Source of the DNA: Thermosynechococcus sichuanensis E542
GTDB taxonomy: Bacteria; Cyanobacteriota; Cyanobacteriia; Thermosynechococcales; Thermosynechococcaceae
Length of the DNA: 64,000 nucleotides
Direction of reading: 5' to 3'
Assembly: GCF_003555505.1 (NCBI RefSeq)
Contig: NZ_CP032152.1
Coordinates: forward strand, 1,364,001 to 1,428,000
Below the pieces are notes generated by a model that did no database searches, was not told where the DNA came from, and saw nothing but the letters and a program-made list of their open reading frames with translations. A program made the position numbers and the translations under genes. The stretch's first letter is position 1. The number at the start of each line of letters is the position of its first letter. This document shows, piece after piece, positions 8,691 through 15,084 of the stretch.

Positions 8691-9383
8691 TTAGGCTCGC
8701 ACGGCTTCGAGGAGTCGCGAAAAGTAAAAGCGGGTTTTGGTCATGGCATTGCGCTCAATCCGCCAACCCAAGTCCCGCAAAATGCCGACAATCAATTCCT
8801 CGCTGTGGAGATAGGCACGGGTGGTTTTACTGGCGCCGGGGAAGAATTCGCCAATCTTCTTGAGGAGGGTATATTTTGGGGTTTTGGGGGCAAAACTGAC
8901 AATCAATCGCTCCATTGCCAAGGAACTCAAGTGGGCTAGCATTCGCGCCATTTGGCTGTCGGGATAGTGGATCAAGACATCAAGGCAAATCACGATGTGA
9001 TATTGTCCCCGCAGAGCCTCAAGATCGCTGACACTCAAGATCAGTTCATGGTGGCCATTCAACTGAGCAGCGGCGCGATCGCGAGCTTCGGCCACCATCT
9101 TCTCAGAAATGTCACTGGCATAGACCCGTGCCCCCAATGCTGCTAGGGGAATGCTCAGACTGCCAACACCACAGCCCGCATCACAGATGAGCTTACCCTT
9201 GAGGGAGCCATCCGCTTTGAGCCATGCCAGCACCGTATCAATGGTTTGTTGGTGTCCCATGCGGATATCCGCTTGCACCTTGCTGACCTGATCCGTGCCA
9301 TAGATGCGCCGCCAGCGATCGAACCCCGTGGTGTTGAAGTAGTTTTGCACAATTGCCTTTTCGTCAGCCGTAGATTGTGTCAT
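8691..9383 (-). CDS. chlM: magnesium-protoporphyrin IX O-methyltransferase ChlM
   Basis: S-adenosylmethionine-dependent enzyme of chlorophyll synthesis that methylates the propionate of Mg-protoporphyrin IX after Mg chelatase. The 230-residue protein has the ChlM/BchM start (VQNYFNTTGFDRWRRIYG), the SAM motif ICDAGCGVGSLSIPLA, the acidic loop VYASDIS and the ICLDVLIHYP region. Length is normal. It lies upstream of tsaE, which begins at the next base. The reverse-strand genes further upstream belong to the restriction-modification island and are separated by 122 bp with a hairpin. Confidence 0.97.
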   Translation of the reverse strand: MTQSTADEKAIVQNYFNTTGFDRWRRIYGTDQVSKVQADIRMGHQQTIDTVLAWLKADGSLKGKLICDAGCGVGSLSIPLAALGARVYASDISEKMVAEARDRAAAQLNGHHELILSVSDLEALRGQYHIVICLDVLIHYPDSQMARMLAHLSSLAMERLIVSFAPKTPKYTLLKKIGEFFPGASKTTRAYLHSEELIVGILRDLGWRIERNAMTKTRFYFSRLLEAVRA

Positions 9384-9469
9384 ATCACTCGTCAGTTGGG
9401 TTATACATTGGGTGTTTTTTGAGATTGGATGAGTATTTAGCTTTTGTTACCGGAAGAGGAGACAGCGTG

Positions 9470-9490
9470 CAATCCTTTTCACAAGGATTG
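9470..9490. repeat. hairpin after the restriction-modification genes
   Basis: Perfect 8-bp inverted repeat CAATCCTT / AAGGATTG with a 5-base loop, 15 bp downstream of the methylase stop codon. There is no T tract on either side, so it is a weak terminator candidate, or a boundary or mRNA-stability hairpin. Confidence 0.5.
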
Positions 9491-9505
9491 AATATGCTCA
9501 AAGCG

Positions 9506-10420
9506 TCAAGACTGCTGTAGGCAAGCATCAGTATCTAACCATAGCAAATCTCGTCCAATCACCAACTCCCTAATCGTAGCATGATGGGTATTTTTCATCA
9601 AAATTGAACGTACCTGAAACTGATGCTGATCCGCCATCTCTTGAACTTCTTTCGTATCACTATATGTCATAAGAAAATCTCCCGAAAGTGAGCTGCAAAT
9701 TCTAAAGAGATGTTCGTGATCAATTTGATGATATTTATAGAGCCTCCTACCAGCATTCTTACCACCCGCTGTATAGGGAGGATCAATGAAGTAGATGACA
9801 TTCTTACGATCAGCAAACTCAAGCATCACATTTAAGCCATCGTCGCAGCGGAAATCGATTCGGCTAGCAATATGATTGATGTTCATAAGTCTCTGGGTAA
9901 GTGTTTTTGGATACCAACGCGAGCTAATCCCTTTGCCCCTCTCGCCATATCTGGCAAATCGAGACCCTTCAGCAAGAATTCCACCGTGTAATGTGCGATT
10001 CTTAAGAGTTGTTTGAAATGCTCTCTCTTTCTTAGAGCTTGGCATTTTTTGCAGTTCCTCTTCAATATTTTCCCTAGTCATTGTAAAGGTTAAAATACGA
10101 TGGGCGAGCCAGTCCGTTTCACCATTCAGAATTGTTTCCCAAACCGCTGCCACCTCTTCATCTAACTCGACCATAATGACTCGATCAACTAAATTCTCAA
10201 AGAGGGCAGTAAGACTAATAATGCCACCACCGGCAAATGGCTCAATGAGAATTTGTGGTTTTTCTTTGAGGCTAGCTACCCAAGTGCGAAAGGTTGGTAC
10301 AAACCATGTCTTCCCACCCGCATAGCGGAAAGGACTCCGCTGTGGCACTGATGCCACATTGACTGGCCGTAGCAAAGGGACGATCTCAGGGAATAGCGAA
10401 AGCTGCTTTTGTATCGCCAT
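9506..10420 (-). CDS. D12-class DNA adenine (N6) methyltransferase
   Basis: Modification enzyme expected to methylate adenine in the target of the nuclease encoded just upstream. The 304 residues carry the Dam/D12 motif order: motif X SPFRYAGGKTWFVP (29-42), motif I IEPFAGGGIISL (59-70), VELDEE (84-89) for the SAM adenosine, and catalytic DPPY (213-216) followed by TAGGKNAG. The gene starts 2 bases after the nuclease stop codon, so translation is coupled and the nuclease comes first, opposite to the order that protects a new host best. The region has no HIP1 octamers and more A/T in third positions than the neighbours, which suggests horizontal acquisition. Recognition sequence unknown. Confidence 0.92.
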   Translation of the reverse strand: MAIQKQLSLFPEIVPLLRPVNVASVPQRSPFRYAGGKTWFVPTFRTWVASLKEKPQILIEPFAGGGIISLTALFENLVDRVIMVELDEEVAAVWETILNGETDWLAHRILTFTMTRENIEEELQKMPSSKKERAFQTTLKNRTLHGGILAEGSRFARYGERGKGISSRWYPKTLTQRLMNINHIASRIDFRCDDGLNVMLEFADRKNVIYFIDPPYTAGGKNAGRRLYKYHQIDHEHLFRICSSLSGDFLMTYSDTKEVQEMADQHQFQVRSILMKNTHHATIRELVIGRDLLWLDTDACLQQS

Positions 10421-10422
10421 AC

Positions 10423-11307
10423 TTAAAACAAATTTTCAATAGTTTCATTAAGCGGGGGAGCTTCCAATTGCTCATCAAGTTTTTCTTGGAGAACTTTGAT
10501 GAAATGGTTGATGTTGCCGGGGCATGGAGTTGTAATTGCCAGCAATGCAGGCTGAAATTCCGTTAAAACTTCATCCACTTTTGTCAAATAATATCGCTCT
10601 GACTCAGTTCCCTCTGCTTTTTGTAGTTCTAGGTCATAGATCAGCCAAGCCATTTCGGCTTTATCTTGTACCTGCTTGAGGGGGGGAAGTGTCTTAAAGA
10701 AACTTCTATGTAAAGCAACTGCAATTTTCTTTTTCCATGAATGCAAGATTCCACCCTTATAAACCAATTGCGGTACGAGTCTCTTGCAAGAAGAGGAAAG
10801 ATAATCGGAACGGGGATAATTTGGCTGCTGAGACCAATTCATAGACGCTCTGTGGTCGGGATCAGCCATGTAGTAGTCAAATGGCTCACGCACATTACCA
10901 GAGATATAAACAGCTTGCATCTCAAGAGCGCCAAAATCAGTCACTCTGCCACTTTCATCGTAGGCAACAAGAACAACATCAATGTTTCCGGCAGACTTGC
11001 CATAGGCATCGTTGAGCCGCACTTCTGTAAGAGAAGTCCACCGTGTTCCCTCTTCAAAAAAGAAATCAACAGCAGCATCAGCAATGATGCAATCCTGACG
11101 AAAGCGAATCGGGCAGGTGATGACGGGTGCCCCTTCATGATAAATACTGCACACACCGAGGGGATTTTTGGCCTTGTCTTTTGGGCAATTGGGTACTTTG
11201 TTGTTAAAAGGACAAAGCCGCCGAGAACGGTAGCGTTGAGCTACATCTGTGTGGTCGGTCACCAGATAGCCAAACACTTCTGCCAGTGGCTGCCCACTAT
11301 TGCTCAT
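10423..11307 (-). CDS. NotI-family type II restriction endonuclease
   Basis: Probable restriction nuclease of 294 residues. The N-terminal third resembles NotI: LAEVFGY, RLCPF, GVCSIYH and ITCPIRF, with cysteines at 32, 41, 53 and 65 placed like the four that hold iron in NotI. The catalytic region reads NIDVVLV (Asp110) and FGALEMQAVYISG (Glu129, Gln131), a PD-(D/E)xK variant with Gln in place of Lys, as I recall for NotI. The adenine methylase follows 2 bp downstream, supporting a type II system. Base composition and the absence of HIP1 sites point to recent gain. Assignment is by eye; a profile search against the NotI family would be decisive. Confidence 0.78.
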   Translation of the reverse strand: MSNSGQPLAEVFGYLVTDHTDVAQRYRSRRLCPFNNKVPNCPKDKAKNPLGVCSIYHEGAPVITCPIRFRQDCIIADAAVDFFFEEGTRWTSLTEVRLNDAYGKSAGNIDVVLVAYDESGRVTDFGALEMQAVYISGNVREPFDYYMADPDHRASMNWSQQPNYPRSDYLSSSCKRLVPQLVYKGGILHSWKKKIAVALHRSFFKTLPPLKQVQDKAEMAWLIYDLELQKAEGTESERYYLTKVDEVLTEFQPALLAITTPCPGNINHFIKVLQEKLDEQLEAPPLNETIENLF

Positions 11308-11352
11308 TCAGAGGCTCTTTTCCAGTGCTGCTGAGTCTAGGAAGAATCACAA

Positions 11353-12267
11353 CTATTGTGGCATAGGGGCTGTGGTTTGCAGTGCCAATCGGGTGCTCAC
11401 TAGCCCCAAAATCACCCCAATGATGATCAGGCAGACCCCCAAGCCCACCGACCATTCAAGGGAGACATTGCTGGCAAGGGCGCGAAAACTGGCCTGTTGG
11501 GTTAACCACTGCTGAAGCTGTTGACTACTGCCCCAACCAACCATCCACGCTAGTAAACCACCGCCGCCCCCTAGACTAGCGGCTTGAATAAATAGGGGGG
11601 TGTAGATCCAAGTTTGGGTAGCGCCCACCAATGTCATGATCTCAATTTCAGGTTGGCGTACAAGGATAATCAACCGCAAAATAGCGCTCACTAGAGCAAC
11701 TACCGTTACACTCAGGAGCAGCACCAAAATGAACGTGACTCCCCGCACCACTCGTTGCAAACTTTGCAGGCCTGTTAGGGCGCGCTCAAGATACTGCACA
11801 GACTCAATGCCTTCCTTTTGGGCAATTTGGCTGGCTAAGGAAACCACCTGTTCGAGGCTTTGGGCGCGAATCTTAATTTCATCACTGAGGGGATTGGTGT
11901 CAAAGAGGTCTAAGCCACCCTGTTCACTTTTGAGGCCTAAATCAGCTTGCAATTCTGCCCAAGCGCGATCGCGATCAATCCAAGTGAAGTCGGCTATCCC
12001 CGGTAATGCCGCTAACTGCTCCTTGAGGCTGGCCACTTTGGCTGCGGGAAGATCAGGGGACACATAGGCCGTAATTTCTAGCCGATTCCCCAAGGACTCG
12101 ACACTAGCGCCAAGGAGTTGCGACACTTGCCAGCCCCAACCAAAAATAAAGAGCGTCACGGCCACAGCAATGACGGCTGCGCCATTGAGCCAACCACCGC
12201 GCCAAAGACTGCGGCGCACTTCTGGCAGCAAAAAGTCAAGGGTGGGGAAGGGACTCAAGTTTGCCAT
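11353..12267 (-). CDS. ftsX: cell-division ABC-transporter-like permease FtsX
   Basis: Membrane partner of FtsE. In other bacteria FtsEX regulates peptidoglycan hydrolases at the septum from the inner membrane. The 304 residues show an N-terminal amphipathic LPEVRRSLWRGGWLNG, a first helix (AVIAVAVTLFIFGWGW), a large extracytoplasmic domain (about 45-175) and three C-terminal helices, the normal FtsX layout. The start lies 32 bp inside the end of ftsE, so they are translationally coupled. Length is standard. Confidence 0.93.
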   Translation of the reverse strand: MANLSPFPTLDFLLPEVRRSLWRGGWLNGAAVIAVAVTLFIFGWGWQVSQLLGASVESLGNRLEITAYVSPDLPAAKVASLKEQLAALPGIADFTWIDRDRAWAELQADLGLKSEQGGLDLFDTNPLSDEIKIRAQSLEQVVSLASQIAQKEGIESVQYLERALTGLQSLQRVVRGVTFILVLLLSVTVVALVSAILRLIILVRQPEIEIMTLVGATQTWIYTPLFIQAASLGGGGGLLAWMVGWGSSQQLQQWLTQQASFRALASNVSLEWSVGLGVCLIIIGVILGLVSTRLALQTTAPMPQ

Positions 12268-13993: not shown

Positions 13994-14025
13994 GCTTTTA
14001 TGACTTCCGTTCGGAGTTGAGTTTT

Positions 14026-15084
14026 ATGACGATCGCGATTGGACGAGCGCCAGCAGAACGGGGATGGTTCGACATCCTCGACGACTGGCTCAAACGTGAC
14101 AGATTTGTCTTTGTCGGCTGGTCAGGCATCCTGCTTTTCCCCTGCGCCTACCTTGCCCTCGGTGGCTGGCTGACCGGTACCACCTTTGTGACTTCTTGGT
14201 ACACCCACGGCCTCGCCTCCAGCTACCTCGAAGGTTGCAACTTCCTCACCGTTGCCGTGTCCACCCCCGCCAACAGCATGGGGCACTCCCTGCTCCTCCT
14301 TTGGGGTCCTGAAGCCCAAGGGGACTTCACCCGCTGGTGCCAACTGGGGGGTCTGTGGACCTTTATTGCCCTCCACGGCGCCTTTGGCCTCATTGGCTTC
14401 ATGCTGCGGCAGTTTGAAATTGCGCGCTTGGTGGGTGTCCGTCCCTACAATGCCATTGCCTTCAGCGCCCCCATTGCCGTCTTTGTCAGCGTCTTCCTCA
14501 TCTACCCCTTGGGGCAATCCAGTTGGTTCTTTGCCCCCAGCTTTGGCGTGGCCGCCATCTTCCGCTTCCTGCTGTTCTTCCAAGGGTTCCACAACTGGAC
14601 CTTGAACCCCTTCCACATGATGGGGGTAGCCGGTGTGCTTGGTGGTGCCCTGTTGTGTGCCATCCATGGTGCCACAGTGGAGAACACCCTCTTCCAAGAT
14701 GGAGACTCAGCGAGCACCTTCCGCGCCTTTACGCCGACCCAAGCGGAAGAGACCTACTCAATGGTGACGGCGAACCGTTTTTGGAGCCAAATTTTTGGGA
14801 TTGCCTTCTCGAACAAGCGCTGGTTGCACTTTTTCATGTTGTTTGTGCCGGTAACAGGGTTGTGGATGAGTGCGATTGGCGTGGTGGGTCTGGCGTTGAA
14901 CCTGCGGTCCTATGACTTTATTTCGCAGGAGATTCGGGCAGCGGAAGACCCTGAGTTTGAGACGTTCTACACGAAGAACCTGCTCTTGAACGAGGGCATT
15001 CGCGCTTGGATGGCGCCCCAAGACCAACCCCATGAAAACTTTGTCTTCCCAGAAGAGGTACTCCCCCGTGGTAACGCGCTGTAG
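14026..15084 (+). CDS. psbD: photosystem II reaction-centre protein D2
   Basis: D2 subunit of the photosystem II core, binding P680 chlorophylls, pheophytin and plastoquinone QA. The 352-residue sequence is standard, from [21 protein letters not shown] to the C-terminal LPRGNAL. I use the ATG at 14026, preceded 9 bases upstream by GGAG, rather than the in-frame TTG at 14017. In cyanobacteria one psbD copy normally overlaps psbC. Here no psbC follows: a strong terminator comes 28 bases after the stop codon, so this is the stand-alone second copy that many cyanobacteria induce under strong light. Expression is probably set by the leader hairpin and promoter upstream. Confidence 0.99.

Follow-up and report, generated by a model that had tools for sequence, protein, structure and literature searches.

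How can a NotI-like restriction endonuclease be paired with a DNA methylase of adenine type, when the NotI site holds no adenine for such an enzyme to protect? The question is raised by two adjacent genes of Thermosynechococcus sichuanensis E542, which we analysed within a stretch of 64,000 nucleotides (contig NZ_CP032152.1, positions 1,364,001 to 1,428,000 of the forward strand; hereafter the window, to which coordinates refer). Both genes lie on the minus strand: the nuclease open reading frame, R (10423-11307, 294 amino acids), is followed by the methylase open reading frame, M (9506-10420, 304 amino acids), with 2 bp between the R stop and the M start (10421-10422), a tight coupling. An earlier note on this DNA had given these coordinates and the spacing, and the sequence bears them out. 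We take NotI itself to come from Nocardia and to recognise GCGGCCGC. The note accordingly offered two ways out: either this branch of the NotI fold reads a site containing A/T, or the methylase is not the cognate one. Our analysis points to a cognate, horizontally acquired cassette, and we lean towards a third solution that the note had missed, namely that D12-annotated DPPY enzymes can be N4-cytosine methylases acting on GGCC, as M.CbeI and DmtB are.

R belongs to the NotI family of type II restriction endonucleases, and its predicted structure has the NotI fold. The profile search proposed in the earlier note matched R to the Pfam family NotI (PF12183) with 204.3 bits against a cut-off of 22, and the AlphaFold model of R (pLDDT 86.0) aligned to the NotI-DNA complex 3c25 with a Z score of 19.9 over 271 residues (root-mean-square deviation 4.4; Foldseek E 7e-11), the next other chain reaching a Z score of 7.3 only. 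The family marks that had been read from the sequence are all present: Cys32, Cys41, Cys53 and Cys65 (stretch 11113-11214, minus strand), which we assume from the NotI structure to form the metal site, and Asp110 and Glu129-x-Gln131 (10915-10980, minus strand), the PD-(D/E)xQ residues, presumably catalytic. These seven residues were invariant in all 36 rows of an R alignment that includes the window and, together with Lys175, Arg176, Gln180 and Lys184, in an 11-row alignment with two NotI-clade proteins (from loci L320 and L321) that are 47% identical to a 186-residue NotI fragment. NotI (PDB 3bvq and 3c25) shares its fold with R over 271 residues, and the two NotI-clade proteins share with R the four cysteines, the aspartate and the E-x-Q, but NotI and R are only 14-17% identical over the structure and R is about 90 residues shorter than NotI (383 amino acids). 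The partners differ too: R has a D12 methylase with a DPPY motif, whereas the two closest NotI relatives that we found stand beside an SPPY (L320) or a C5-cytosine (L321) methylase. A single-sequence search of the PDB with R missed NotI, which a profile search recovered; a plasmid search with the NotI fragment gave no match, and a phage search with R gave one record. The nucleases of L320 (3956-5134) and L321 (3965-4981) had no Pfam NotI match at E 0.001, unlike the more distant R of the window. An open frame of 197 codons lies antisense to R (10741-11334, plus strand) and is probably there by chance; antisense transcripts regulate some restriction-modification (R-M) genes.

On the evidence of gene linkage, M is the true partner of R. 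A scan of a genome collection with R found 454 relatives, and in 78 of the best 80 loci, chosen by R alone, the nuclease gene was followed directly by a D12 methylase gene on its own strand. The exceptions are L086, which stops at a contig end, and L101, whose R is truncated and which lacks M. The 80 loci carry about 21 phylum labels, archaea (Methanothrix) included, most of them being metagenome bins, in which binning errors occur, with Thermus brockianus and Pyrinomonas as named strains. The distance from the R stop to the FRYxGGKTW motif of M was 85-139 bases in 77 relatives (median 100) and is 92 in the window. The reverse search, of viral contigs with M alone, returned 31 loci, and among the best 14 a NotI-family nuclease stood beside M in 10 (8 of 12 when near-copies were left out). 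Because linkage holds in both directions, we reject the idea of a non-cognate methylase. Nor is the gene order anomalous: the note was right that R precedes M, but R-then-M is the rule of the clade (78 of 78 loci with both genes) and does not point to a mismatch. The nuclease also comes first in other R-M systems such as EcoRI, with extra promoters for the methylase. Relatives of M with no visible NotI-family nuclease nearby were seen in four viral loci (L228, L229, L230 and L232) and on two plasmids (L015, Bdellovibrio; L016, Deinococcus); such lone methylases may protect mobile elements against a NotI-type system.

Comparison within the genus indicates that R and M are a complete, horizontally acquired type II R-M cassette. 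The pair occupies an insertion (9384-11352) between chlM (8691-9383) and ftsX (11353-12267), and in a survey of 11 genus genomes (G000, the source genome, a single contig of 2.65 Mb, to G010), made via the ftsX end, chlM and ftsX were neighbours without the cassette in eight (G001-G007 and G009), none of which had a match to R. G008 holds a broken cassette at the same place, its M lacking the first half and its R an internal stretch and the end, and G010 an intact copy elsewhere in the genome. G+C content is 0.443 for R and M together against 0.533 for the window, and 0.40-0.41 at third codon positions against 0.56-0.62 in the two neighbouring genes. It is these empty sites, the broken copy and the low G+C that argue for acquisition. 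Among 292 cyanobacterial genomes R was found in five and M (E up to 1e-20) in four, G000, G021, G237 and G263, all of which carry R; the fifth, G259, has an R match nearest the Cronobacter type and no D12 M match. The nearest relatives of the window R are in Chloroflexota, Omnitrophota and Acidobacteriota.

Both genes are, by substitution pattern, under purifying selection. The ratio of non-synonymous to synonymous substitution rates (dN/dS), calculated for 48 close pairs and defined in 45 of them for either gene, ranged from 0.03 to 0.13 in R and from 0.04 to 0.18 in M; one nearly unchanged pair (0.86 and 0) was excluded, and many dS values are near or above 1. In 2499 of 2556 pairs drawn from 72 loci the identity of R exceeded that of M (medians 71.3% and 64.7%), and dN/dS was the lower for R in 33 of the 44 pairs with both defined. 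Loci and pairs were, however, picked for similar nucleases, a choice that biases towards such an outcome, and between the window and G010 the two genes are equally conserved (R 72.4%, M 71.7% identity). R thus seems to evolve more slowly than M across these loci (L023-L104). In R-M systems the reverse is usual, the nuclease evolving faster than the methylase. Frames were split in some of the 80 loci, in R (L043, L059, L073, L092 and L097) or in M (L038, L096 and L102), by decay, phase variation or sequencing error.

If M belongs with R, the question becomes which base it marks. M matched PF02086 (MethyltransfD12) with 51.1 bits against a cut-off of 22, and carries, in the alpha order, the S-adenosylmethionine-binding motif FxGGG (residues 62-66, 10223-10237, minus strand), beginning F62-A-G-G, and D213-P-P-Y (residues 213-216, 9773-9784, minus strand). 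Both the FxGG motif, with F62, G64 and G65, and DPPY were invariant in 26 of 26 rows. The description of M as a D12-class DPPY methylase therefore stands, while the word adenine in it was drawn from the motif and the family name. M differs from Dam in several respects. Dam, DpnM and T4Dam methylate adenine at N6 (m6A) in GATC, and they share the D12 fold with M (Z scores 18-23), but M scored 46.5 bits against the NCBIfam dam model, far below its cut-off of 114.85, and is 13-22% identical to Dam-like cyanobacterial controls. The GATC recognition loop of Dam (NxPFG type) is absent from the aligned members of the M clade, whereas eight of nine Dam-like controls have NxPFG, NxPMG, NxPYG or NxPLG and the ninth, L279, has NxPFC. 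The model of M (pLDDT 79.9) matched 7m6b best (Z score 24.7), ahead of Dam (at most 22.6) and DpnM (21.8), and a profile of the M family found 7m6b, named 'Mcbe1', at E 7.1e-10 over nearly its full length, with Dam-type enzymes weak at E 0.01-0.09 and 2dpm next after 7m6b at 0.01. We take Mcbe1 to be M.CbeI, since two cyanobacterial proteins matching DmtB share 55-59% identity with the 7m6b fragment.

M.CbeI is informative in that its label and its chemistry disagree. According to its published description, the enzyme, annotated like M as D12 and adenine-specific and carrying DPPY, makes N4-methylcytosine (m4C) in GGCC, as does DmtB of Anabaena, 57% identical to it (PMC3425538). For Synechocystis M.Ssp6803II the product is given as GGm4CC (PMC11662147). 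Because M.CbeI and DmtB both belong to the DPPY group, DPPY need not mean adenine. M shares with them the fold, DPPY, RYPGGK and features resembling NR..F.G and ..LY....DHE.., but it is only about 21% identical to M.CbeI and its putative target-recognition region (residues 141-207, 9800-10000, minus strand; bounds set in this analysis from the alignment) is longer. At so large a distance the likeness to 7m6b alone does not decide the methylated base. M.DraR1, reported to be an alpha-class m4C enzyme of CCGCGG (PMC6712171), was considered as a closer model and dropped, since it has SPPY. The best PADLOC match of M, ahead of type II methylase models, was PD-Lambda-5_B (130 bits), the methyltransferase part of a prophage system reported to join a compacted R-M system to abortive infection, with no NotI-family nuclease mentioned in the available part of its account (PMC9519451).

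What argues for cytosine is the exchange of methylases around NotI-family nucleases. Plasmids of Achromobacter (pEST4011), Burkholderia, Variovorax and Aeromonas carry a NotI-family nuclease with a D12 methylase 44-48% identical to the window M, publicly annotated as 'NotI family restriction endonuclease' beside 'DNA adenine methylase'. The cassettes of the IncP plasmid pEST4011 and of small Aeromonas plasmids have the R-then-M plan of the window, but their nucleases are 28-29% identical to R and their annotated gaps are 52 and 133 bp. The nuclease of pBN5 is 82% identical to that of pEST4011, yet it pairs with a C5-cytosine methylase and Vsr where pEST4011 has a D12 enzyme. At 82% identity the two nucleases should share a site, which would then probably be guarded by either a D12 or a C5 methylase. 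In a quick nuclease tree with long branches, which we rely on only for the nesting within the pEST group, the plasmid nucleases with a D12 partner fall inside the C5-paired group. Homologous nucleases with a C5 partner (Pfam-checked in three) occur on pBN5, in Sedimenticola, on Cronobacter pESA2, in Pseudomonas and Roseivivax and on viral contigs, where seven of nine nuclease loci have a C5-type methylase and four of those seven also Vsr. The NotI-clade nucleases pair with a C5-cytosine methylase (L321) and an SPPY N6/N4 methylase (L320), and neither with D12.

The recognition domains of these C5 methylases are consistent with a target core kept throughout. When C5 methylases differ in specificity, it is as a rule their target-recognition domain (TRD) that has diverged most. 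Among nine cyanobacterial C5 controls of unknown specificity, left after three of 12 were dropped by a length filter, it was 30.6% identical against 42.6% for the rest. Between the L321 methylase, our one NotI-clade C5 sequence, and those of pEST and Cronobacter type, the TRD was 41% and the rest 44-46% identical (in single pairs the difference between TRD and rest ran from -10 to +1 points), whereas L321 against nine other C5 methylases gave 23% and 40%. The pEST and Cronobacter groups were 56% identical in the TRD and 46% elsewhere. Because these TRDs are conserved nearly like the rest, the C5-paired nuclease lineages probably share their target core with NotI. The window system probably shares it too, since the recognition region of the window clade M is as conserved towards the pEST4011 methylase as the remainder (46.2% for both). 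With a GC-only site, cytosine is the sole base left for M to mark. Each link in this chain is one that we infer.

We therefore somewhat favour the view that the locus is an acquired cognate cassette in which R is the NotI-fold cutter and M would protect a GC-only, NotI/EagI-like site by N4-methylation of cytosine. R and M would probably be co-transcribed, M just after R; M would most likely be an alpha-class (D12, DPPY) N4-cytosine methyltransferase of the M.CbeI/DmtB sort, marking a cytosine in a site with a GGCC core, as the methylase exchange and the shared C5 recognition domains suggest; and R would cut incoming DNA where that site is unmarked. The observed basis is fold, family, linkage, purifying selection, insertion and the exchange of methylase class around near-identical nucleases. 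Methylated base, target sequence, co-transcription, expression and activity are predictions from it. With M an N4-cytosine enzyme, the apparent mismatch between cutter and protector would disappear.

Counts of palindromes do not single out one site. In a scan of 64 palindromic hexamers over 415 kb of flanks, all from carrier loci and with no non-carrier control, CGGCCG ranked first (154 against 293.5 expected), GGATCC and GGGCCC close behind. In cyanobacterial samples, observed and expected CGGCCG were 0/45 in G021, 4/53 in G263, 23/106 in G010 and 40/82 in G000, all carriers, against 27/37 and 15/33 in non-carriers. Whole-genome counts of CGGCCG and of its backwards control showed strong avoidance in G021 (17/741 in 4.4 Mb), and gave 39/237 in carrier G237 against 510/570 in its family mate G028, and 35/97 in carrier G263 against 118/72 in its genus mate G112. 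In three contrasts of carriers with non-carriers, CGGCCG ranked 10th (G263), 4th (G010) and 33rd (G000) of 64, and 8th by mean; GGGCCC, CAGCTG, TTCGAA and GACGTC were first to fourth by mean, and 17 of the 64 palindromes were lower in all three. Avoidance of CGGCCG is thus striking in some carriers (G021, G237 and G263) and absent in others, G000 and G010 among them. A site of HIP1 kind, CGATCG or GCGATCGC (two bases from the NotI site), was dropped: CGATCG is abundant and no lower in G000 than in the genus, and the Sedimenticola C5 methylase, the one tested, shares no more than 41% identity with long cyanobacterial matches. Some other palindromes were scarce. In 400 kb sampled from G000 (L124-L143) TTTAAA occurred 0 times against 45 expected and GAGCTC 0 against 50, two genus mates together giving 7 against 47 and 7 against 60, which suggests other restriction systems with such sites; G263 (L194-L203) strongly avoids both CGCG (127 against 675) and GATC (429 against 816).

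Several observations weigh against N4-cytosine and leave room, if doubtfully, for M as a true m6A methylase with a NotI-fold branch that reads an A/T-containing site. DPPY is the usual adenine signature, and M is a member of D12. At its low identity to NotI the site of R may differ, and M is distant from M.CbeI, with the longer recognition loop. With few D12 enzymes in the PDB, the closest solved structure says little about chemistry, and an unrooted tree of three D12 groups cannot tell which two are sisters. For CGGCCG, the genus carriers G000 (260/682) and G010 (160/353) resemble the nine other genus genomes, and the CGGCCG/GCCGGC ratio in 50 of the 80 carrier genomes, from other phyla (median 0.59, range 0.07-1.83), shows nothing consistent. 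In the three contrasts, GACGTC alone of the 64 palindromes was reduced two-fold or more each time. Counted in 16 whole genomes (G000-G010, G021, G263, G112, G237 and G028), it is rarest in the genus in G000 (31), G010 (34) and the remnant-bearing G008 (43), the other eight genus genomes having 52-152, and it occurs once in carrier G263 against 25 times in G112. An adenine-marking M would, given the pBN5/pEST4011 exchange, need a site with both adenine and cytosine, for which GACGTC is one candidate. But the choice of GACGTC among 64 palindromes was made post hoc, with small counts and shared controls, and carriers G021 (202 sites in 4.4 Mb) and G237 (610 sites in 4.9 Mb) show no depletion, although the R of G021 is nearly that of G263. 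Moreover, the TRDs beside pEST-type nucleases are conserved with that of L321, which accompanies a close relative of NotI and hence a site expected to be GC-only, and DPPY alpha-class m4C enzymes exist. GACGTC is a weak lead, though the best at present for adenine, and because of it we hold the N4-cytosine assignment a little less firmly, and the adenine one a little less doubtfully, than we otherwise would.

Three further explanations fare worse. C5 methylases might read a GGCC core alone while the nucleases need A/T flanks, as in YGGCCR, so that an adenine could be marked; a review gives M.EaeI (YGGCCR) and M.EagI (CGGCCG) a common GGCC core (PMC4722110). This we think very improbable, for it needs over-methylation by the C5 partner, to which nothing in the data points, and TGGCCA is over-represented in G000 (ratio 1.43), G010 (1.67) and G021 (1.23) as in the non-carriers G001 (1.26) and G005 (1.52), while G263 (0.41) lies above its non-carrier mate G112 (0.15). 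Still less credible is a solitary or chance-neighbour M, with R protected by another methylase: the four viral loci of 14 and the two plasmids with M and no visible NotI-family R, and the R match without M in G259, speak for it, but linkage in 78 of 80 loci, in one order and across about 21 phylum labels, and M in four of the five R-bearing cyanobacterial genomes have largely refuted it. Just as improbable is a decaying remnant without activity; it could appeal to the broken copy in G008 and to R being split in five of the 80 loci, but both window frames are intact with all conserved residues, and dN/dS in the clade is low. Elsewhere in the window, the open reading frame at 14017-15084 is one that we take to be psbD-like; together with chlM it suggests a Thermosynechococcus-like cyanobacterium.

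The component parts of the cassette are of known kinds. Among the matches listed in open-licence PubMed Central we found no report of a NotI-family nuclease paired with a D12 methylase, and no suggestion that such a NotI-paired methylase is N4-cytosine-specific; the part available of a paper on Thermosynechococcus (PMC9403480) names no NotI-type system. If, contrary to the N4-cytosine reading, M marks adenine, a branch of the NotI fold would have gained an A/T-containing site and would represent a new lineage of rare cutters. If M marks cytosine, so does a whole clade that public genomes annotate as adenine methylases, and m6A predictions would be wrong for its carriers, among them those of the 454 nuclease relatives in one genome collection. 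Tentatively, and with somewhat less confidence than in the local reading, we suggest that one nuclease fold has kept a GC-only target while three unrelated cytosine-protecting chemistries, C5, SPPY N4 and DPPY alpha-class, were swapped around it, the last being a large overlooked group of N4-cytosine methylases across bacteria and archaea that goes by the database name 'DNA adenine methylase'. The family would then offer a clean natural case of one nuclease lineage that changes the chemistry of its methylase and keeps its site.

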